DNA of 64,000 nt from contig JABFGK010000002.1 in assembly GCA_013112555.1 (NCBI GenBank), positions 434,001-498,000 of the forward strand. Direction: 5' to 3'. Shown here piece after piece: positions 35,337-63,761 of the stretch (the stretch's first letter is position 1; each line of letters starts with the position of its first letter). The position numbers and the translations under genes are program-made. The stretch comes from Planctomycetota bacterium. Lineage in GTDB: Bacteria > Planctomycetota > Phycisphaerae > Phycisphaerales > UBA5793. The notes under the pieces were generated by a model. It made no database searches, was not told where the DNA came from, and worked only from the letters and a program-made list of their open reading frames with translations.

Positions 35337-36756
35337 TTACCCAATGCGCTCAGCCCCACCCATGTATGGCCGTAGGGCGGTTGGGACGGTGATGGAACCG
35401 TCCTCGTTCTGATACATCTCCATGACAGGGATCAGGAAGCGCGGGCAGGCCAGCACCGTGTTGTTGAGCGAATGGCAGAACACCGGCTTGCCGGTCTCGT
35501 GGTCACGGTACCGGAGATTCAAACGGCGGCACTGATAGTCATACAGCCGGCTGGCCGAGTGTGTCTCGCCGTAGGCCCCGGTCGGCCGCCGATTGGTCTG
35601 CTCCCGGCTGCCGTCACTGTCTTCCCCTCCCCCATACCGCCCCGGCATCCAGCACTCGAGATCGATCATGTCGGCATTCTTCGGCCCGAGATCGCCCGAA
35701 CAGCACTGGAGCAGTCGATACGGCAGTTCCAGCCGCTGCAGTACGGTCTCAACAAAGCCGATCATCTTCTGATGCCAGGCCCGGCTCTCGGCCTCGTCTG
35801 CCTTGCAGATCACGACCTGTTCCACCTTGTCGAACTGGTGGATACGATACACGCCGGCGGTGTCCTTGCCGGCTGCGCCGGCTTCACGGCGGAAGCACGT
35901 GGAGACGGTGGTGTAACACTTCGGCAGGTCGTCGGCATCGAGGATCTCATCCTTGTGGAACCCCATCAGGCCGACTTCACCGGTCCCGGTGAGGTACAGG
36001 TCATGCCCGCCCCCCCCGCTTGGTCTCCTCGATTTCGTAGGCCTGGTCCCGACCTTCGGGGAAGAAGCCGGTCCCGACCATGATCTCATCGCGCACGATC
36101 ACCGGCACGTACACCGGCGTAAAGCCGTTTTCCTCGGTCATAAAGTCGAACGCAAAACGGAGGAGTGCCTGGGCCAGCCTCATGCCGTCGCCGATCAGCA
36201 CATACGAACGGCTGCCCGACATTTTGACGGCCCGCTGAAACTCGATCAGGCCGTGCTTTTCTGCCAGCTCAAGATGGGTCAGGGGGGCAAAACCGCGGTT
36301 GTCCTCGAATGACTTGGCCGGGTCGAACCAGTCCGGGTTCCAGCGTCGCAGTTCGACATTGTCATCGGCTGATTTGCCGACCGGAACGTCATCGTCAGCC
36401 GGTTGCGGGATCCGCAGCCACAGGGCATCGCGCTGCGGCTCAATCTCGACAATCCGGGCAGCAAGTTCCGCTTCCCGGGTCTTGATGGCCGTCGGTCGCT
36501 GCTGCAGGGCCTTCATTGACGCCTGCAATTCAGCCCGCTCGGCATCGTCTGCTGCCTTTTTCATGCGGCCGGCGACCTGGCCGATTTCCTTGCCGATTCG
36601 GTTCTTTTCGGCAACGAGATCCTGCAACTCGGTCTGGCAGGTTCGCAGTTGCCGATCCAGGTCGAGCAGGGCATCAATATCGACGGCGGAGCCTTTGTTG
36701 GCAGCCCCACGCTTGAATCGGTCCGGGTCATCTCGAAGTCGTTTGAGGTCAATCAT
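35337..36756 (-). CDS. serS: Seryl-tRNA synthetase, split by a frameshift in a C8 run
   Basis: The ATG at 36756 (MIDLKRLRDDPDRFKRG) begins a normal SerRS: a coiled-coil tRNA-binding arm (about residues 25-105), then HLELAEKHGLIEF and VPVIVRDEIMVGTGFFPEG. It stops at 35998 after TKRGGRA. The rest of the enzyme continues in another frame from the same point: GHDLYLTGTGEVGL, STCFRREAGAAGKDTAGVYRIHQF (motif 2) and NNTVLACPRFLIPVMEMYQNEDG (motif 3), ending normally at 35337. The switch falls in eight consecutive C (36010-36017; G8 in the gene). Seven would restore one 470-residue protein. For an essential gene, a run-length error in the sequence is the likeliest explanation. Confidence 0.9.
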
Positions 36757-36895
36757 GGTGCTTGATGGTAGCGTCGCTCGGCCACAGGCAAGTGCCACCC
36801 GTGAGTTCTCTTGGTGTGAAAAACGTGATGCGGGCAGGGCGGATCGACTCTCGGTGGGTCGGGGATATACTGACCGGCTGTTACTCAGCCTGATT

Positions 36896-36982
36896 GCCCA
36901 GGTGGCGAAATTGGTAGACGCGCCAGCTTGAGGGGCTGGTGGGAATTATTCTCCCGTGGAGGTTCGAGTCCTCTCCTGGGCA
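36896..36982 (+). tRNA. tRNA-Leu (anticodon GAG)
   Basis: 87 nt. Acceptor stem GCCCAGG pairs with CCTGGGC, then discriminator A; CCA is not encoded. The D arm region has GGCGAAATTGGTAGACGC as in leucine tRNAs. The anticodon stem is CCAGC/GCTGG with loop TTGAGGG (anticodon GAG). A long class II variable arm (GGGAATTATTCTCCC) and the T arm with GGTTCGAGTCC follow. It lies 35 bp from the left direct repeat of the inserted element. Confidence 0.95.
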
Positions 36983-37016
36983 TTTCAATCAAACGGTCCC
37001 GAATCCCCCCCCGTTT

Positions 37017-37237
37017 TCCCCTGCTACTATTCAAACGACGCCACCGAGCTGGTCAGTTTCACCAGTGCCTGTGTCAATTCGTCGATCCGCTTCAGAATCT
37101 CAGGGCTGCTCACGGATTCGTCGTCGAAGTCCGGGTAGTTGGCGTACACAAACCGCGGGTCGATGACGGTCCGGAAGTCGAGCATGAGGCTGTTGGCCAA
37201 CTGCATGACGGACATGTAGCTGCCTTGACCGCCGGCT
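37017..37237 (-). repeat. Left 221-bp direct repeat: truncated copy of the FMN reductase 3' end
   Basis: This segment matches 39091-39311 over exactly 221 bases with about ten substitutions and no indels. In the minus frame it encodes the last 70 or so residues of the NADPH-dependent FMN reductase ([17 protein letters not shown] to [10 protein letters not shown] and the same stop). It lacks everything upstream, so it is a gene relic. Together with the right copy it brackets the AlbA_2 gene. Confidence 0.88.
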
Positions 37238-37542
37238 ATGTGGGAATCACATTACAGTCACATGGCGACAGCGCTACAAAAGTCCTGTAACATGCTGATA
37301 ACCGCCTATATAGGCCCTGACTGAGCCTGCGGAAGAGCAGCGGCAATCGTTGAGTCACATAGCCGTCACATTGCTCTGACTCGCCAAGTGCAGGCTCCAT
37401 GCGCATCGACGAACTCCAAGGACGCCATAAACCATACAAATGACCTGGATGTCCTCTTTATATCTGTATTCAGATGCTGCTACTGTGCAACGAAGGCAGG
37501 CAAGTCTGACGTTTGCGTCTGCGTGCGAGCCTGACGGTCCGA
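37238..37542. other. Non-coding left part of the inserted element
   Basis: 305 bases between the left repeat and the AlbA_2 gene, A+T-richer than the surroundings, with no recognisable gene. Short imperfect repeats of TCACAT (about 37258, 37354 and 37368) are present. No integrase remnant could be identified. Confidence 0.4.
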
Positions 37543-39000
37543 TCACCACGCTGCCCAGAACGGAGCGTATTTCGCATGTCTTCTAGCTTTACTGTCAGGT
37601 GGGTCGGGCCGGATCATCCCCGCTTTGACCGTGTCAGCGATTACTCGGGAGACCTGTGCATAGTTTCTCTCCTCGATGCCAAAGCGTCTGCGAAGCGTCG
37701 AGTTTGACATCCTCTCACCCGTGATCCACCGAAGACCAGCATGCTGATAGCATGCTCTAATCCGCTCCTCGCGATCCATTTGCGCAAACCTTCGATAGGC
37801 AAACAATGTGACCCTCGTACTATTGCTGCTCTCAATAAACGCAGGGGGAGGGAGCTGAAAGAACTCGACGGCCGTCAAGACTCGATCAATCCCACTGCCT
37901 AACTCCTCACACATGCCCATTCGGCGCATGAGCGACGCGAGCTGCTCATTGCGAGAGCGGGGTGGAATATCCAGCCGATTCGGGTCAATGATCGGGCGGC
38001 CTGGGTTTGACACTTCGACCCGATTCCGAAATACCTCGACAAGAGGCCCAGTGCCGGTAACGGTAAAATCCTGGTGAATCAATGCGTTGGCGACGACTTC
38101 ACGCACCGCGATCTCAGGATACATCGGTACTGTGGTCCTGAGGGCCTGCCCAATCGGCTCATTCTGAGGGAGCTGCGCGTTCAACCAGGCAACGAGCCCA
38201 CTGAAGCCGGCAGCGTACCCCTTATCACCCTCCTGCTGACGCACAATTTCAGTTCTGTCATCTCCGCGATAGACCACCACGCGCACCGCTTTTCGGGCGA
38301 GTCGCTCAAATTGACTCAGCGACTTCGCAAAGAGAGTCGCACCTAAATTGGTCACGGCATATCCGGACGGCTTATGTTCCACCAATCGCTCAGCAGTCAG
38401 CCGCTCGAGGATGCTCCCGCGATTTTCCGGAAGCGGTTGCCCAATCAACTCGAAGTACGCCGGAAAGTCCAGTAGGGGAAGGATATCGGCTTCATCGAGC
38501 CGCTCTCTGGCCGATAATGTCTCAAAAGGCCGCGCATCGAAGCGGGACCACATCTCCCTCTCCTTGGCGATGTGCTGTCGCAACTCAGTGGTTGATTCCC
38601 CAATCCGCACATATTCAACACGCTTGAATGCGACAGGGGACTGACTGGCGGCAGGCACGCAGAACACAACGACATGCTTGCCTTCAACTTCACCCTCGTG
38701 AATTGTGAAGTGTACTCGGGGCGACAAGAACGACGCAAGCCATATCTCGAGGGGCTGGCTCCCTCTCCGGTCCGACTTAGGACGAAAATCAGTACCGACC
38801 AACTGATGCGACTTGTTTTCTATCCCCCAGACAATGTACCCTGCGTCCTGATCCTGCAATACCGCAGCGTTCGCAATCGCTGATATGTTCTTCCCGATCC
38901 TCTCAGCATCACAGTTGTTAACCTTGAATTCGACCCATTCGGTCTCATGTGGAAGGCTACGTATGTGCGCGACAACTTGTGGAAGATCGGCGTCGTTCAT
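37543..39000 (-). CDS. AlbA_2 (Schlafen-type) DNA-binding domain / ATP-binding protein
   Basis: 485 residues from the ATG at 39000 (a TTG at 39030 would add ten). The N-terminal AlbA_2 domain (about 1-130) shows ETEWVEFKVNN, IGKNISAIANAA and DAGYIVWGIEN. A middle winged-helix-like part contains YAVTNLGATLFAK. It is followed by an HATPase_c_4-like region with IAVREVVANALIHQDF (N-box, about 305), VEVSNPGRP and MGMCEELGSGIDR (G-box). Such proteins are typical cargo of mobile or defence-associated regions and are thought to be regulators, but their activity is not settled. The gene sits alone between the 221-bp direct repeats. Confidence 0.86.
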   Translation of the reverse strand: MNDADLPQVVAHIRSLPHETEWVEFKVNNCDAERIGKNISAIANAAVLQDQDAGYIVWGIENKSHQLVGTDFRPKSDRRGSQPLEIWLASFLSPRVHFTIHEGEVEGKHVVVFCVPAASQSPVAFKRVEYVRIGESTTELRQHIAKEREMWSRFDARPFETLSARERLDEADILPLLDFPAYFELIGQPLPENRGSILERLTAERLVEHKPSGYAVTNLGATLFAKSLSQFERLARKAVRVVVYRGDDRTEIVRQQEGDKGYAAGFSGLVAWLNAQLPQNEPIGQALRTTVPMYPEIAVREVVANALIHQDFTVTGTGPLVEVFRNRVEVSNPGRPIIDPNRLDIPPRSRNEQLASLMRRMGMCEELGSGIDRVLTAVEFFQLPPPAFIESSNSTRVTLFAYRRFAQMDREERIRACYQHAGLRWITGERMSNSTLRRRFGIEERNYAQVSRVIADTVKAGMIRPDPPDSKARRHAKYAPFWAAW

Positions 39001-39090
39001 CGTACTCAAGTGAAACCTATGTTTTCCCAAGCGCCGTCATCCTCGCGAATCGGCACGGCCAGGCGCGGGAACTCCGGCCTACATCTGCGA

Positions 39091-39311
39091 TCCCCTGCTA
39101 CTATTCAAACGACGCGACCGCGCTGGTGAGTTTCACCAGTGCCTGGGTCAATTCGTCGATCCGCTTCAAAATCTCAGGGCTGCTCACGGATTCATCGTCG
39201 AAGTCCGGGTAGTTCGCGTACACAAACCGGGGGACGATGACGGTCCGGAAGTCGAGCATGAGGCTGTTGGCCAACTGCATGACGGACATGTAGCTGCTTT
39301 GACCGCCGGCT
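39091..39311 (-). repeat. Right 221-bp direct repeat (3' end of intact FMN reductase)
   Basis: This is the partner of 37017-37237 and overlaps the last third of the intact reductase gene. The repeat begins ten bases beyond the stop codon (TCCCCTGCTACTATTC) and ends at GACCGCCGGCT within the coding sequence. The two copies are in the same orientation, 2,074 bp apart. Confidence 0.88.
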
Positions 39312-39637
39312 GAGCAGAGGAAGCCGGCCACCTTGCCGGTCCAGCCGTCGCGCCCGGTGAGTTCGACGACGTTCTTGGCGGCAGCACTGACATCGAAGTT
39401 GTAGATGGGGCAGGCCATCAGAATGCCCTGGGCAGCCACGACCCGCTGCTTGAGCAGTTTCGCGTTCTCGTTGTTGTACGCATCGGCCCCGTCACACACC
39501 GGCAACGGCAGGTCGGCCAGATCGAGCAGTTCGGTCTTGCTCTCGCTGATCGACGCGAGGCGCTGGTACGCCTCCTGGGCCAGCAGGCGGCTTCGGCTGT
39601 TCGGATTCAAACTGCAACTGATGACGAGATAATTCAT
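39101..39637 (-). CDS. NADPH-dependent FMN reductase family flavoprotein
   Basis: 178 residues with a flavodoxin-like fold. LVISCSLNPNSRSRLLA at the start is the FMN-phosphate loop (S-x-N-x-x-S), ILMACPIYNFDVSAAAKN (about 75) the flavin-binding PxYN loop, and TGKVAGFLCSAGGQ (about 105) the third loop. It would reduce flavins or quinones with NAD(P)H. Its last 70 codons are duplicated 2 kb downstream, on the other side of the AlbA_2 gene, which implies that an element integrated at this 3' end while leaving the gene complete. Confidence 0.85.
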   Translation of the reverse strand: MNYLVISCSLNPNSRSRLLAQEAYQRLASISESKTELLDLADLPLPVCDGADAYNNENAKLLKQRVVAAQGILMACPIYNFDVSAAAKNVVELTGRDGWTGKVAGFLCSAGGQSSYMSVMQLANSLMLDFRTVIVPRFVYANYPDFDDESVSSPEILKRIDELTQALVKLTSAVASFE

Positions 39638-41737: not shown

Positions 41738-44700
41738 CTACACCGCTGCCAGCCGATCCAACTCACCTTTGGCATCGGCCAGTTGCTTGCGGGTTTCCTC
41801 AACAAGATGGGGCGGGGCCTTATCAACGTACCCCTTGTTGCCCAACCGCCCTTCGAGGACCCGGATCTGCTTTTCGAGTTCATCTCGACGACGCCCGACC
41901 CGCTCGGCCTCTGCCCCGGCGTCGAGTGATGATTCCTCGCCGGCCAGCCCGGACAGGGCATGCTCGACTCCCGCCACGGTGAAGGTGACCCAATCGGAAC
42001 CACGATCCGCTGATCCATCAAGAGCGGACCATTCGCTCAAGCCTGCCAGCGATTCGACCACCCCGTCGGCCGATTCGATCAATGCGGTGGTCGGCTCGTC
42101 GCCCACATGCAGCGCGATCCGACGCTTGTCGGGGACCTGATGCGAAGCCCGGATCTCCCGGATGGCAGTGACCAGTGCCTGGGCCCGCTCAAACGTCGCG
42201 ACATCCTCGTTCTGATCGGTGACAGCCTGATCAAGGCCGGCCAGTTGCGGCCAGCGTGCGGTGGCTGCCATGTCGGACGGCGGGAGTTGCACGCACGCGA
42301 TCGGCTGGACCGCCAGCGACTCGATCGGCTCGTGGAGCGTCTCGGTAATGAACGGCATGATCGGCTGGGCCATCCGATGAATCGAGCCCAGGACAGCGCG
42401 CAACACGGACTGCTGGGTCGGATCGGTCGCGATCGTTGCCTTGACGGCCTCGAGGTACCAGTCGCAGAAGTCCCGCCAGAACAGGTCGTACAGGCCCTGG
42501 GCATAGGCATTGAACTGATACTCGCTGACGGCCGTCTCGATATCGCGCACTGTTCGGGCCAGCCGGGCCAGGATCCAGCGGTCAACCAGGCGGGTCGGCT
42601 CCCCATCGGGTTTCCCGTGGCCGTCAACGGACCCGAGTGTCATGAGCGCAAAGCGGGTGGCATTCCAGAGTTTGTTGCTCAAGCGTCGGCCGATCTCGAA
42701 CTTCGGGCTGCTGTTGGCACCGATTGCCTCGTCATACTCGACCGGCATCCGCACATCCTGCGTCTGGGTCGTCATTTGCGCCAACGTGAAGCGCATCGCG
42801 TCCGAGCCTTTGGTCTTGATAATGTCGCGCGGGTCGACGCCGTTGCCCAGCGACTTGCTCATCTTGCGGCCATCGCCGTCCTGAATCATCGCATGGATGA
42901 ACACATCGTCATACGGCAGCCGCCCGAGGAAGTAGAGGTTGAACATCACCATGCGCGAGACCCAGAGGGTAATGATTTCGCGGGCAGTGCACAGAACGCT
43001 GGTGGGGTTCCATGTATTGAGGACGTCCCAGCCTTCGGGAATCTCGGTCAGAAACGCCTCGGGATTCGGCCAGCCCATGGTGCTCATCGGCCAGAGTGCG
43101 GAGGAGAACCAGGTGTCGAGGACGTCGGGGTCCTGCGCAAAGCCGAGTTCCTTCAGGGCTTCGACTAACTCGGGGATATCCCGGCGTGGGCAGGCGCAGA
43201 TAGTTGTGCCATGCTTCGCCCCACCTGTGCGATCATCGCTGGCTGCGCGTTCGATCGTTATAACGTGCAGATCGTCCGGGTACTGTCCTCTCAGGCTGTC
43301 CAGTGCGCTCTTATCCGGCGTTTTGCGCTCATCGTCAAACACCCACACCGGGATCCGGTGCCCCCACCAGAGTTGCCGGCTGATGCACCAGTCGCGGATG
43401 TTCTCGTGCCAGGACTGGAAGGTGCGGGCATAGCGCTCAGGATAGAAGGTGAGGCGGCCATGCCAGCCCTCCTCATGGTCGGTGGCACGGGCGTCTCGCC
43501 CGTCCCAGTGGGCCGAAGGCCCAGATACGTCTTCACACTCATCCGCACTATCCCTCGTCTGAGGGTTGACCGTGAACTCATAGTCTGCAGCCTGCTTGAT
43601 CAAACCTGCCTTGACCGGATTCATCCACATGTACTGCCATTTCTCTTCGAACTCCGCCTCGTCCCGCATGATTCGATCGTAATACTCGTCCTGCCAGACG
43701 CTGCCGGATGATCCACGTGCCTGGTTGATCTCATGCGCCGAGTAACTCTTAATGCTGTGGATAAGATCCGGAAGGGGATACCAATGCTTCGTGTCATTCT
43801 CCTGTTGCATCGGCGTCATGAGGATGTGTACATGGTCATGCATCACGGTCACAAGATGAATGATGGCCCGCTTCTGATGCCAATGCAGGCAAGAAGAAAG
43901 GACAAGTCGTCGCTCATCTTGGCTCAATTGCCCATTTGCACACCGAAACGTCACAAAATAAGTCTGGCCGCCTGCCTCCCAGTGGGGAAGGCTTCTTGCT
44001 CTTCTATGGAGCTGTCTTGTGACGACCCTTTTGACGGGCGAGACGCCCGTCCCACCGTCTTGCTGTGATTCTGATTTGACGGGCGAGACGCCCGTCCCAC
44101 TGTCATTTCCCCCCCACTGTTTCAACTCATCTCCCACGACCTGCTCTTTGCTCATTGCGCGCAAGGCAAAGCCGGCCAGTGAGTTCACCGGCAACTTCGT
44201 TCCCGGCAGCGTGCCTGCATCATCAAGCGACGGGATCTGTCTCGTCACGGCGACATACCACTGGTCACTCAAGTACGGCTCAATGGCGACGTGACTGCGA
44301 TACGAGTGGCCGACCGAGTGGACATACGGCTTCACTTCTTCGAGCAGGCTGTTCTCACGGAACCACTCGACAACCGCTTCGCGCGCTTCGTAACGATCAA
44401 GCCCAAGCGTGAACTCACCGCCGCCGACGTCCTCCCAGCCATACTGGTCGCTCACACACCCATCGGGAGCCAGGACGTTGATGATCGGCAACTCGTGGCG
44501 CAGGCCGATCTCCCAGTCATTCGGATCGTGGGCCGGCGTGACCTTGAGGAAGCCGGTCGCAAACTGTGCCTTTGCATCGTCCGGGTCGCCGCCGTGCTCG
44601 ACGGCCAGGACCACGTAGTCGTCTTCGATGATCGGGATTTCACGATTGACGATCGGCAGCCGAATCATTCGGCCGGCAAAGTGCTTCGCTCTCGGGTCGC

Positions 44701-45433
44701 GCGGATTCATGGCCACGGCCGTATCGCCGAGCATGGTTTCGGGTCGGGTGGTGGCCACGGTGACATGGTCATACGCCGTGCCGTCGATGACGACCGGGTC
44801 GCCGATCAGGGGATACTGGAGATACCAGAAGTGCCCTTCAACCTCGTGCATTTCGACTTCATCGTCAGCCAGCGCGGTCTGCGTGGCCGGGTCCCAGTTG
44901 ACCAACCGCTTGCCGCGATAGATCAGGCCTTCCTGAAAGAGCCTGAAAAACGCCTCCCGGACGGCTGCAGCACAGACATCATCGAGCGTGAATCGGGTTC
45001 GGTCCCAATCGCAGGAGCATCCCATTTCGCGCAACTGGCTGAGGATGGTGGACTGAAACTCGTCTTTCCACGAGAGGATCTTGTTGACGAACTCCTCGCG
45101 CTCAAAATCGGTCCGACGCTTGCCTTCCTCGGCCAGCACCCGTTTTTCGACAACGGTCTGGGTCGCGATCCCAGCATGGTCGGTCCCCGGCATCCAGAGG
45201 GCGTTACGGCCTCTGGCCCTGTGATAGCGTGTGAGGATGTCCTGCAGCGTGTTATTGAGCGCATGCCCGAGGTGAAGTTTGTCGGTGATGTTGGGCAGCG
45301 GGATCAGGATGCAGTAGGGGTCACCCAAATCGCCGGGGACGGCATGAAAAGGGTGTTTATCCACCCATTTCTGCAGAACTTTAGGTTCCTCGGCGAGTGG
45401 ATCATACGATTTGGGAAGTGCTGTCATGTCCAT
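41738..45433 (-). CDS. valS: Valyl-tRNA synthetase containing an in-frame RAYT transposase insertion
   Basis: 1,231 residues, about 200 more than expected. All ValRS parts are present: HLGHA (HIGH motif, about residue 54), the CP1 editing domain with TTRPETMLGDTAV (about 228), SDQWYVAV (389), WCISRQLWWGHRIPVW (682), KMSKSLGNGVDP (about 857), the anticodon domain, and a C-terminal coiled coil rich in E/R/L. Between residues about 446 and 652 lies foreign sequence: two GTGVSPVK repeats, a REP-associated tyrosine transposase, then DGRDARATD. The frame is preserved across both junctions. The insert falls between the end of the CP1 region and the second half of the Rossmann fold, where ValRS sequences vary. 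Whether the chimeric enzyme is active is not known from sequence. No other valS is in the window. Confidence 0.93.
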   Translation of the reverse strand: MDMTALPKSYDPLAEEPKVLQKWVDKHPFHAVPGDLGDPYCILIPLPNITDKLHLGHALNNTLQDILTRYHRARGRNALWMPGTDHAGIATQTVVEKRVLAEEGKRRTDFEREEFVNKILSWKDEFQSTILSQLREMGCSCDWDRTRFTLDDVCAAAVREAFFRLFQEGLIYRGKRLVNWDPATQTALADDEVEMHEVEGHFWYLQYPLIGDPVVIDGTAYDHVTVATTRPETMLGDTAVAMNPRDPRAKHFAGRMIRLPIVNREIPIIEDDYVVLAVEHGGDPDDAKAQFATGFLKVTPAHDPNDWEIGLRHELPIINVLAPDGCVSDQYGWEDVGGGEFTLGLDRYEAREAVVEWFRENSLLEEVKPYVHSVGHSYRSHVAIEPYLSDQWYVAVTRQIPSLDDAGTLPGTKLPVNSLAGFALRAMSKEQVVGDELKQWGGNDSGTGVSPVKSESQQDGGTGVSPVKRVVTRQLHRRARSLPHWEAGGQTYFVTFRCANGQLSQDERRLVLSSCLHWHQKRAIIHLVTVMHDHVHILMTPMQQENDTKHWYPLPDLIHSIKSYSAHEINQARGSSGSVWQDEYYDRIMRDEAEFEEKWQYMWMNPVKAGLIKQAADYEFTVNPQTRDSADECEDVSGPSAHWDGRDARATDHEEGWHGRLTFYPERYARTFQSWHENIRDWCISRQLWWGHRIPVWVFDDERKTPDKSALDSLRGQYPDDLHVITIERAASDDRTGGAKHGTTICACPRRDIPELVEALKELGFAQDPDVLDTWFSSALWPMSTMGWPNPEAFLTEIPEGWDVLNTWNPTSVLCTAREIITLWVSRMVMFNLYFLGRLPYDDVFIHAMIQDGDGRKMSKSLGNGVDPRDIIKTKGSDAMRFTLAQMTTQTQDVRMPVEYDEAIGANSSPKFEIGRRLSNKLWNATRFALMTLGSVDGHGKPDGEPTRLVDRWILARLARTVRDIETAVSEYQFNAYAQGLYDLFWRDFCDWYLEAVKATIATDPTQQSVLRAVLGSIHRMAQPIMPFITETLHEPIESLAVQPIACVQLPPSDMAATARWPQLAGLDQAVTDQNEDVATFERAQALVTAIREIRASHQVPDKRRIALHVGDEPTTALIESADGVVESLAGLSEWSALDGSADRGSDWVTFTVAGVEHALSGLAGEESSLDAGAEAERVGRRRDELEKQIRVLEGRLGNKGYVDKAPPHLVEETRKQLADAKGELDRLAAV
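43485..43508. repeat. REP palindrome, copy C (right junction of RAYT insert)
   Basis: ACGGGCGTCTCGCCCGT with flanking CCCAG. It is the inverted orientation relative to copies A and B and lies at the gene-distal end of the insert, where it encodes DGRDARAT in the valS frame. Confidence 0.85.
44033..44055. repeat. REP palindrome, copy A (inside RAYT insert)
   Basis: GACGGGCGAGACGCCCGTC followed by CCAC. In the valS frame it encodes GTGVSPVK and sits directly before the transposase sequence. It is identical over 23 bases to copy B, 45 bp away. Confidence 0.9.
44078..44100. repeat. REP palindrome, copy B (left junction of RAYT insert)
   Basis: The same 23-base element as copy A and in the same orientation, encoding GTGVSPVK at residues about 446-453 of ValS, where similarity to normal ValRS ends. 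The core palindrome also occurs alone at 8804-8820. Confidence 0.9.
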
Positions 45434-55866: not shown

Positions 55867-57417
55867 TTATTCGATATGAACGACGTTTGACGTCTCGCAG
55901 GTGGTGACGTCGACGGCCTGAACATAAACACGACCACATGCAATGGCGGGGACCTTGACATCGAGCCGGCCCGTACCATTCTCATCAGCCACTCCGACAC
56001 TTGCAAGTTTCGTGGTCTTGTTCAACCCGAGGGTGAGGCCGGCGCACTGGTATCCAGGGGGGATTTCGAAGGAACCTTCGCCGTCGGCATAGAGGTATGC
56101 AATCCTCGCGCCAGGGGTGGCACTTTCAACCTTGAATCGCATTTGGCCCGGGCAAGACCCGAGTGTTGTCAGAGACGGGGGGGTGCAGTTGAGATCAAAG
56201 ACGTAGGCAGCCCCGGTGCGCACGCCCTGTTCATTCTCATCTCGATACGCCCCGACAACAAGCGTCTCACCTTCCAATGCGAGTGCGGACCCGAAGTATG
56301 TATAGAGTTCCATACTCGGTCCTGGTACGCTGGTCTCCTCAATGCACTGCTGCCCGTCGAGTCGGTAGGCAACGGCGAGACCGGTTGATCGTTCATGATC
56401 CGGCCCGCCTGTGATGCACATGCTCTCAGACATCGCAACCGCTGTTCCCAGGGAATCCTTGCTGAAACCGTCGCTGATCATGATATCACATTGCATCGTC
56501 CAGTCGGACCCGTCCCAGCGATAGATGTAGGTATGTCCCTTGTCGTTCCCGTAGTAATATCGCGGTGCACCAATGGCCAAGAGATCACCGGACATCGAGA
56601 CGGCCGACCCGAAGAGGCTGTTTTCCATGCCGCCGGGTTCAAGAATTCTGGCCTCCTGAACCCATTGACTCCCGTCCCAACCAAAGACATACACCGCGCC
56701 CGAGCGCACGCCACGGTCGTCACAATGCGGTGCACCGATAGCCAGCCGTGTCTGTGACAGCGAGATCGCAGAGCCGAACAGATCGCCGCTTTTCGTATCC
56801 GTTCCCTGAACCGTTGCCTGTCGGTCCCATCGCTGATCCTGTACGTGCAGTACCGTGACGGCGCTGCCGCCCGGCTCGTCATCCAGCCCGAGCGCGCCGA
56901 TCGCTGCCTGCGTGCCGTACATACTGATTGGATGGCCGAAGCGTCTGTGTGCCTTGTCCTCCTCTGCATGCAGCACCTGCCGCAGGGACCACTCATTGCC
57001 TTCCCAGTAGAACGCACAGGCACCACCGGAATCCGGGACCATTGTGTTACGCTCGGGGGCCCCTACCAGCGCCCACCTGTCGGAGACCGACACACTCAGG
57101 GCATACTCCTGCTCCTGAATGGTCGCGCGATCGAGCATGGCTTCCTGGATCCACCCTTCACCTGTGCGCCGGTAGACATAGGCGCATCCGTGATCTTCAT
57201 ACGGTGCGTCTGCATTCGAAGCCCCAACAACAAGAAGGTCGCCGGATATCGAAACGGCACATCCAAAGTTATCGCCATGGGCACCGTTGGACGCCAGGAG
57301 CCGCTGTACCAGCACGGGTTCACAGGTTTGGGCGACGGCCGTCGACCCGGGCGTCAACATGAGTCCACCTGCCAGCCCCAGGATCAGGACCCATGAAAGA
57401 GCGAGATGATATTTCAT
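55867..57417 (-). CDS. Secreted FG-GAP repeat protein, tandem paralogue 5
   Basis: 516 residues from ATG 57417 (AAGGTAG upstream). Signal peptide MKYHLALSWVLILGLAGGL, cleavage near VAQ, then CEP. Seven FG-GAP-like repeats follow, each about 50-55 residues, of the pattern D-x-FG-x-(S/A)-(V/I)-SG-(D)-hydrophobic-VGAP, with Y-V-F/Y and W strands; a seven-bladed propeller is likely. The tail (from LGSCPGQMRF) has cysteines in GSCPG, YQCAG, IACGRVYVQ and TTCETSN. Its stop is at the 3' end of the five-gene array, and it is most similar to paralogue 1 in the tail. Confidence 0.87.
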   Translation of the reverse strand: MKYHLALSWVLILGLAGGLMLTPGSTAVAQTCEPVLVQRLLASNGAHGDNFGCAVSISGDLLVVGASNADAPYEDHGCAYVYRRTGEGWIQEAMLDRATIQEQEYALSVSVSDRWALVGAPERNTMVPDSGGACAFYWEGNEWSLRQVLHAEEDKAHRRFGHPISMYGTQAAIGALGLDDEPGGSAVTVLHVQDQRWDRQATVQGTDTKSGDLFGSAISLSQTRLAIGAPHCDDRGVRSGAVYVFGWDGSQWVQEARILEPGGMENSLFGSAVSMSGDLLAIGAPRYYYGNDKGHTYIYRWDGSDWTMQCDIMISDGFSKDSLGTAVAMSESMCITGGPDHERSTGLAVAYRLDGQQCIEETSVPGPSMELYTYFGSALALEGETLVVGAYRDENEQGVRTGAAYVFDLNCTPPSLTTLGSCPGQMRFKVESATPGARIAYLYADGEGSFEIPPGYQCAGLTLGLNKTTKLASVGVADENGTGRLDVKVPAIACGRVYVQAVDVTTCETSNVVHIE

Positions 57418-62192: not shown

Positions 62193-63761
62193 CTATTGTA
62201 TCTTCACGACGTTTGAGGTATCGCAGGTGGTGAGGTCGACAGCCTGTACATAAACTCTGCCGCACGCCGATGCCGGCACATTGACATCAAGACGGGCCTT
62301 GCCGAGGTCGTCAGCACCGGCGACTCCGACGAGATGGACGGTCCTATTCAATCTCAGCGTCAGGCCGGCGCACGGGTATTCAGGGGGGATCACGATCGAG
62401 CCCTCGCCCTCGGCGTAGAGGTAGGCGACTCTGCTGCCCGGGGTGACATCCTCGACCTTGAAGCGCATCGGGCCCGGGCAGGAACCGAGGGTGAAGAGCA
62501 CCGGAGCACAGTTCAGAGCGATCACCCGCGCGCTCCCACGATCACGAATTCCGCCTTCATCGTCTCCCGGGGTTCCGACGATGGCCTGGCCGCCTGCGAG
62601 TGCTACGGAGGCCCCATATTGATCGTCGACTTCTCCCGGTTCCGGCTCGACAGTCGAGCTGATGACGCAGCCGCGACGATCCCATTGCGCGATGTACAGG
62701 GCGCCTGCATCGAGCCAAGGTGCACCAATGACCGCTGTATGTCCTGACATGGCAACCGCTGCGCCGAAGCCATCGCCGCCAACAGCGTCAGGTGCACGCA
62801 GTCTGCACTCTTGCGTCCAGCGAGCGTTCTCTCGTGTCAACAAGTAAGCCATCCCTGTTCGGTTACCGCTGCGTGGCTCTCCAATCAGGGCCGATGTCTC
62901 TGTCATGGCGACTGCATAGCCATACTTCCCAAAGTTGTGAAACGCTGGAGGCAGTAGCTTCTGCTGGAATCCCCATTGACTCCCATCCCAGTGAAATGCA
63001 TAGACCGCACCGACTTCAAGATGACTGTATGTGATCCTCCGTGGCGCACCAACGAGGATGCTGTCTCCCGCAATCGCCACGGCATAGCCGAACCCATCAT
63101 CAAATGACCGGTCCGGTGCTGCCAGTTTCGCGACTTGCACCCAATCTGATCCAATCAACTGAAAGACATAGGCAGCGCCCACCAACTGCTTCGAGCCGAC
63201 ATCGGCACGCGAGGCCCCAATGACAATCGTGTCATCGGCGATACTGACGCTGCAACCAAACTCCTCACGATCACCGCCGTCCGACGCCAGGAGCTTGGCG
63301 TACTCACTCCACTGCTCGCCATCCCTGTGAAAGACATAAACCGATCCAGAGTTTGGCTCACCAATGTCATCATGGGGGGCACCGATGACTGCAAACTCTT
63401 CTGATAAAGCAAGACAGTATCCGAACCAATCTCCGGAGCCGTAGGGATCTGTCGCTGTCAAAGCAGATTCCTCCACCCACTGCCCGTCGGTATAGCGATA
63501 TGCGATCACTGCACCCGCGTCCGTACCGTGCCTGTCATCAAACGGAACTCCAACCAACGCCACGTCATCCAGCAGGGCCACCGCGTACCCACACGCTGCA
63601 TCATCATGAACGCCCTCCGGCTCCAATCCCTGCACCTCCACCGGCTCACAGTTCTGGGCAATCGCCGATGCCGACCCAACCGCTGGCAGCGAACCGCCGC
63701 AATGCCCAACCAACAACAGGCCGAGTATGAGAAAGCGCATGCCCCAATGGTGTGGTCGCAC
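62193..63761 (-). CDS. Secreted FG-GAP repeat protein, tandem paralogue 1 (first of array)
   Basis: 522 residues from a GTG at 63761. This start was chosen because GGAGGGTCAAGCC precedes it in the same way that AGGAGGGTC precedes the GTG of paralogue 2, and both open V/M-R-P. The frame remains open to 63842. The hydrophobic part is MRFLILGLLLVGHCGGSLP, cleavage near AIAQ, then NCEPVEVQGLEP. Seven FG-GAP-like repeats (GDWFGYCLALSEEFAVIGAPHDD, REEFGCSVSIADDTIVIGA) are followed by the tail LGSCPGPMRFKVEDVTPG...ACGRVYVQAVDLTTCDTSN. It is first in the direction of transcription. Confidence 0.87.
   Translation of the reverse strand: MRPHHWGMRFLILGLLLVGHCGGSLPAVGSASAIAQNCEPVEVQGLEPEGVHDDAACGYAVALLDDVALVGVPFDDRHGTDAGAVIAYRYTDGQWVEESALTATDPYGSGDWFGYCLALSEEFAVIGAPHDDIGEPNSGSVYVFHRDGEQWSEYAKLLASDGGDREEFGCSVSIADDTIVIGASRADVGSKQLVGAAYVFQLIGSDWVQVAKLAAPDRSFDDGFGYAVAIAGDSILVGAPRRITYSHLEVGAVYAFHWDGSQWGFQQKLLPPAFHNFGKYGYAVAMTETSALIGEPRSGNRTGMAYLLTRENARWTQECRLRAPDAVGGDGFGAAVAMSGHTAVIGAPWLDAGALYIAQWDRRGCVISSTVEPEPGEVDDQYGASVALAGGQAIVGTPGDDEGGIRDRGSARVIALNCAPVLFTLGSCPGPMRFKVEDVTPGSRVAYLYAEGEGSIVIPPEYPCAGLTLRLNRTVHLVGVAGADDLGKARLDVNVPASACGRVYVQAVDLTTCDTSNVVKIQ

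Follow-up and report, generated by a model that had tools for sequence, protein, structure and literature searches.

A lone Schlafen-like gene probably inserted with long target duplication at the end of a planctomycete FMN reductase gene

The window considered here, a stretch of 64,000 nucleotides from a Planctomycetota bacterium, holds an FMN reductase gene whose 3' end occurs twice, once within the intact gene and once as an orphan fragment on the far side of an unrelated gene. One question then is how a gene of apparent defence function came to lie between two copies of the end of its neighbour. The answer that we regard as probable is that a lone AlbA_2/Schlafen-like defence gene was inserted with a long target duplication at the 3' part of the reductase gene.

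The duplicated reductase end and its insert

The two copies of the direct repeat (37017-37237 and 39091-39311) are each 221 bp long, align without gaps at 95% identity and lie 2074 bp apart from start to start, in exact agreement with a first-pass annotation made from the sequence; in the 4.55-Mb genome, a genome search places this repeat at exactly these two positions (E 7.8e-112 and 2.7e-98). The right copy consists of the last 211 bp of an intact FMN reductase gene of 178 aa on the minus strand (39101-39637; FMN_red E 1.5e-26), together with 10 nt beyond its stop codon, and the homologues of this reductase align over the whole length, tail included. The left copy preserves the frame and the stop codon of the intact gene, the homology likewise extending some 10 nt beyond the stop, and the repeat alignment bears out its earlier description as an orphan tail ending at the same stop. 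It occupies the original place of the reductase 3' end beside a tRNA-Leu(GAG) gene on the plus strand (36895-36983; ARAGORN, Rfam RF00005), the native downstream neighbour, from which it is separated by 33 bp rather than by the 35 bp first given.

Between the copies lies an insert of 1853 bp (37238-39090), present once in the genome and slightly lower in G+C than its surroundings. Read along the minus strand from the intact reductase, it comprises a spacer of 60 bp (39031-39090), a single ORF of 495 aa (37543-39030) with SLFN_AlbA_2 and HATPase_c_4 domains, and a non-coding 3' part of 305 bp (37238-37542), which has no long ORF and no match in an Rfam scan where the tRNA alone was matched. ORF and Pfam analysis of 37238-39090 revealed no integrase, transposase or recombinase, so that the initial picture of an AlbA_2/HATPase gene with about 0.3 kb of additional DNA and no integrase holds. 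The homology between the two reductase copies ends sharply inside the gene, and any overlap at the junction amounts to a few bases at most. That these features are an artefact of assembly from mixed strains is extremely improbable: the genome is in two contigs with an estimated completeness of 92%, and the nearby serS gene is broken at a homopolymer, but the contig measures 1.69 Mb, an overlap of a few bases is too short for an assembler to use, and an equal architecture is found in other assemblies, named isolates among them.

Three further peculiarities of the window may be recorded. The serS gene (35337-36798, minus strand) is broken near a C run at about 36010 into overlapping frames, one for Seryl_tRNA_N and one for tRNA-synt_2b, probably by a homopolymer error or a recent frameshift. 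The valS ORF (41738-45433, minus strand, 1231 aa) contains, inside the synthetase domain and bordered by GTGVSPV peptides, an in-frame stretch of about 190 aa that by eye resembles a REP-associated (Y1-type) transposase, Pfam giving synthetase domains only. A direct repeat of 299 bp, 73% identical between its copies (55868-56166 and 62194-62492), falls within a region of 40-bp periodic repeats.

The ten substitutions that separate the two reductase tails comprise seven synonymous and three non-synonymous changes. One of the latter (V135D) gives the orphan an aspartate where all 29 relatives have V, I or L, and the orphan tail has therefore begun to decay; S173 in the orphan is also unusual, while the third amino-acid difference, S114, sits in the intact reductase. 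Under simple duplication with one copy neutral ever since, non-synonymous changes would be expected to make up about 60-64% of the differences. The excess of synonymous changes gives p 0.03-0.055 for the window alone and p 3e-6 to 4e-5 when five clear tail cases are pooled, and the same tendency accompanies a tail divergence of 2-30% across the repeat-flanked loci described below. Since the differences are mostly synonymous, simple duplication followed by decay fits poorly. An equivalent pattern is expected either if the incoming DNA brought its own tail allele or if recombination replaced the intact gene at a later time; the first-pass proposal that the element carried its own tail is thus suggested by the synonymous excess, with which allelic replacement of the intact gene agrees equally well.

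Two functional paralogues would also have diverged mostly at synonymous sites, as might follow if the whole reductase gene was first duplicated in tandem, the AlbA_2 gene then entered, and the second copy lost its 5' part. This sequence of events is nevertheless improbable, given that the homology stops sharply within the reductase gene, that the same scar recurs elsewhere with fragments of many genes, one of them of 60 bp and 98% identical, and that one recurrent case, in Halomonas, has an empty site without tandem genes.

The AlbA_2 protein and its defence contexts

The SLFN_AlbA_2 domain of the window protein scores 60.6 bits against a curated cut-off of 25.3, and an AlphaFold model of the protein (mean pLDDT 85.6) is matched by Foldseek to 3lmm, an uncharacterised bacterial protein, and weakly to the Schlafen domains of SLFN14, SLFN11 and SLFN13. 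All 23 homologues compared have E29 and E34; position 72 carries D in 17 of them and N in the window protein. The resulting spacing, E-x4-E-x37-D/N, matches that of E205, E210 and D248, which form the active site of SLFN13 (PMC5862951). By this acid spacing and by its predicted N-terminal fold, the protein resembles the vertebrate Schlafen RNases; it departs from them in consisting of a single bacterial core followed by a GHKL-type ATPase and a C-terminal part, and in the asparagine at the third position. A Schlafen-like, nucleic-acid-processing role in defence is accordingly a prediction from domains, conserved residues and modelled fold.

The genomic contexts of the homologues point in a similar direction. 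Linkage to hsd genes is seen in 31 of 100, homologues lying within type I restriction-modification (R-M) operons, and other contexts include an antiphage operon and satellite phages; PADLOC returned weak matches to pAgo-associated models. The MloB/AlbA_2 genes that accompany type I R-M loci as accessory genes have the same domain architecture, a plasmid homologue (H14) being annotated as MloB, whereas the window copy has no hsd linkage. By analogy with these relatives, the window gene is probably a Schlafen-like anti-phage or defence gene. E. coli, considered as a population test, carries a homologue in 4 of 5,426 genomes, beside a retron in a P4-like satellite, and was set aside since as satellite cargo this homologue is uninformative on target duplication.

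Flanking repeats around homologous genes

If the arrangement in the window reflects a mode of insertion, the tail-plus-AlbA_2 combination might be met elsewhere, as the first-pass annotation proposed to check. The homologues, mostly 41-53% identical, occur in cyanobacteria, proteobacteria, acidobacteria, bacteroidetes, planctomycetes and other groups. When the DNA upstream of each AlbA_2 gene was compared with the DNA downstream, tight flanking direct repeats were found at 13 of 76 testable loci, as against 1 of 473 size-matched control intervals taken from the contigs of these loci, and further loci from the phylum of the window added 3 of 24. Among control families, flanking repeats occurred in none of 29 Fic, none of 22 AIPR, 2 of 28 N6_N4_Mtase and none of 20 SIR2_2 loci. 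With the window left out, the pooled comparison is of 16 in 100 AlbA_2 loci, drawn from many phyla, with 2 in 99 control-family loci (p 4e-4); matched by phylum only (3/24 vs 2/99), the enrichment is marginal (p 0.05). All 17 repeat-flanked cases, the window included, are stand-alone genes (17 of 69 stand-alone loci vs none of 31 hsd-linked), and about 83% of the homologues are without such a repeat. Because two of the loci (L059 and L114) are near relatives, the number of independent cases is about one fewer.

In most cases the repeat is a piece of a neighbouring host gene. Repeat length varies between loci from 35 to 285 bp, and the targets are unrelated genes in both orientations, duplicated at heads as well as tails; the names of these targets were assigned partly by eye, those of sulfatase, asparaginase, MoaB and MoeA being confirmed by Pfam. 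Duplicated 3' tails are those of EF-G (L046), asparaginase (L109), a sulfatase, ending exactly at the stop codon (L131/L262), and MoaB in Halomonas; duplicated 5' heads belong to HsdR (L053, L125) and a RhuM-like gene (L076), and other fragments to an S9-type peptidase (L104) and a TcdA-like gene (L083). One copy of the target gene is intact in the clear tail cases, as selection would require, with the limit that at L046 and L053 the gene runs off the contig and can be read only in part. Integron cassettes were considered as a source of the repeats and ruled out, most repeats being pieces of different coding genes. The flagged repeats of L050, L064 and L078 and the inner copies of L059/L114 are non-coding and may have another cause. 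At L059 and L114 there is a non-coding direct repeat, about 89 bp on each side of the AlbA_2 gene, with similar sequence in L050, L055 and L104; it is common to AlbA_2 loci from different phyla and may belong to the element itself.

Two of these loci may be described further. At L262 the order is sulfatase, 64 bp, AlbA_2 gene, about 302 bp and a 60-bp orphan tail running to the stop codon and 98% identical to its counterpart, a layout almost identical to that of the window down to the sizes of the 60-bp spacer and the 305-bp non-coding part. On a plasmid of Paracoccus marcusii (L277) the duplicated sequence is the tail, about 285 bp, of a plasmid HTH gene, the orphan copy having later been split by an IS3 element. 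Related Paracoccus plasmids have the HTH gene followed by other genes; 11 other plasmids carry the HTH gene, and the orphan tail of L277 is about equidistant from all 11.

The duplication can be followed at base resolution in Halomonas, where the overlap between moaB and moeA consists of the bases ATGGCTGA. In genome G512 (L067) an AlbA_2 gene is situated between exact 37-bp copies of the end of moaB with the start of moeA. The corresponding empty site is provided by genome G551, in which moaB and moeA overlap; its moaB and that of G512 are 99% identical. The empty-site comparison proposed at first pass therefore succeeds for a homologous insert, but for the window itself it yields nothing, since the family members in which an empty site was sought do not keep the reductase neighbourhood or its synteny. 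Two other Halomonas species (L070, L072) have a complete hsdM-hsdS-AlbA_2-hsdR island at the moaB-moeA site, and the repeats of all three loci begin and end at identical bases. Both repeat copies within one genome carry nearly all of the synonymous variants proper to that genome.

L067 has its insertion site and left flank in common with these islands and, because L070 and L072 hold the full island there, is best read as a deletion derivative of a type I R-M island. Together with the hsd linkage of 31 in 100 homologues, this might suggest that the insert in the window is likewise what is left of a larger R-M island that entered with target duplication and has since lost its hsd genes. We consider such an origin very unlikely: no hsd similarity is found near the window gene, and at L053 and L125 the AlbA_2 unit alone must have been the insert, since the duplicated target is there the hsdR head itself.

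The moaB-moeA junction also accommodates, at L323 (G545) and L324 (G542), an unrelated operon that by eye encodes a TRAP transporter, accompanied by a 37-bp duplication similar to that of the R-M and AlbA_2 inserts in other species. The junction is thus an insertion site with exchangeable cargo and, since it takes several cargoes, the AlbA_2 gene is not required there. Different cargoes flanked by an identical 37-bp repeat might be expected of a site-specific element, and the window could by the same token hold a non-autonomous element at an att site within the reductase, mobilised by a recombinase in trans and carrying a replacement 3' tail. The location at a gene end, the restored intact gene and the divergent tail with its mostly synonymous differences would all agree. 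Yet the insert has no recombinase, the loci reveal no short fixed att core, in view of the 35-285 bp repeats and their varied targets, and both Halomonas repeat copies bear the host's own synonymous variants. The likeness to integrative elements with replacement tails, drawn at first pass, is for these reasons not upheld, and such an element is improbable here. A search for a conserved terminal sequence of the insert, by comparing all 5' and 3' flanks with one another, gave mainly coding hsdS and hsdR ends and neighbouring genes of close relatives, and in addition one non-coding repeat limited to a few loci.

Mode of insertion and its meaning

Insertion with long target duplication is said to have been described for restriction-modification genes by Nobusato et al. 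in 2000 and by Furuta et al. in 2010. For such genes, target duplications of long and variable extent, of the order of 100 bp, are reported to accompany insertion, and single R-M components appear to be mobile (PMC3874152, PMC3031569, PMC1643837). The window and its homologues share with them a defence-type gene, flanked by long direct target duplications of variable length (221 bp in the window, 35-285 bp in the homologues) and unaccompanied by a transposase or integrase, as well as, for the Halomonas insert, an empty site. They differ in the cargo, which in the window is a lone AlbA_2/HATPase_c_4 gene in place of a restriction or modification gene, and in tails that diverge by 2-30% with a synonymous excess and are spread over many phyla. 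A second known process is homology-facilitated illegitimate recombination (PMC3240628), proposed as the source of orphan 3' regions in T6SS and Rhs loci (PMC5361080). Here too one end may have been anchored by homology in a conserved gene and the other joined illegitimately, which would leave orphan and divergent gene ends; but the cargo of T6SS and Rhs loci belongs to the anchored cluster, whereas the AlbA_2 genes are unrelated to their putative anchor, which can be any end of a host gene, and in Halomonas the duplication is exact and nothing was lost. By its anatomy the window fits insertion with long target duplication, and the divergence of its tails fits a contribution of homology-facilitated illegitimate recombination. 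The open-licence papers searched contain no report of target-duplicating insertion of AlbA_2 genes.

By analogy with the recurrent cases and the Halomonas insertion, we infer a like origin for the arrangement in the window. Insertion into the 3' part of the reductase gene would have produced a second copy of its last 211 coding bases (221 bp overall) across the insert, and homologous recombination in the duplicated gene end could have served to anchor the DNA as it entered or, at a later time, to exchange the intact allele, either of which would explain why the tail differences are mostly synonymous. The AlbA_2 gene, as putative anti-phage cargo, would survive because the target gene remains intact, in keeping with the original view of a minimal defence-type cargo at a gene 3' end with an orphan tail beyond it. 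Within insertion with long target duplication, a one-ended homologous import by homology-facilitated illegitimate recombination has a little less than an even chance; that the resident sequence was truly duplicated and recombination came afterwards is plausible at a lower probability, and another route is unlikely. It is also conceivable, if very improbable, that the AlbA_2 protein promotes its own insertion, a Schlafen-like nuclease making widely staggered nicks near gene ends and repair duplicating the stretch between them. If true, a single gene without a transposase would constitute a self-mobilising element; present evidence does not support the protein as the driver of its own movement.

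The arrangement in the window is real and probably belongs to a known insertion class of unexplained mechanism, here with a lone Schlafen-like gene in the place of R-M genes as cargo. At stake is a question that has stood since the R-M insertions were described, namely how lone defence genes enter chromosomes without a recombinase. In the Schlafen-like family such duplications accompany about a quarter of the stand-alone copies, across phyla, and so offer many independent junctions; with the matched empty site in Halomonas, and with orphan gene ends as a simple mark of recent insertions, the mechanism would become testable.
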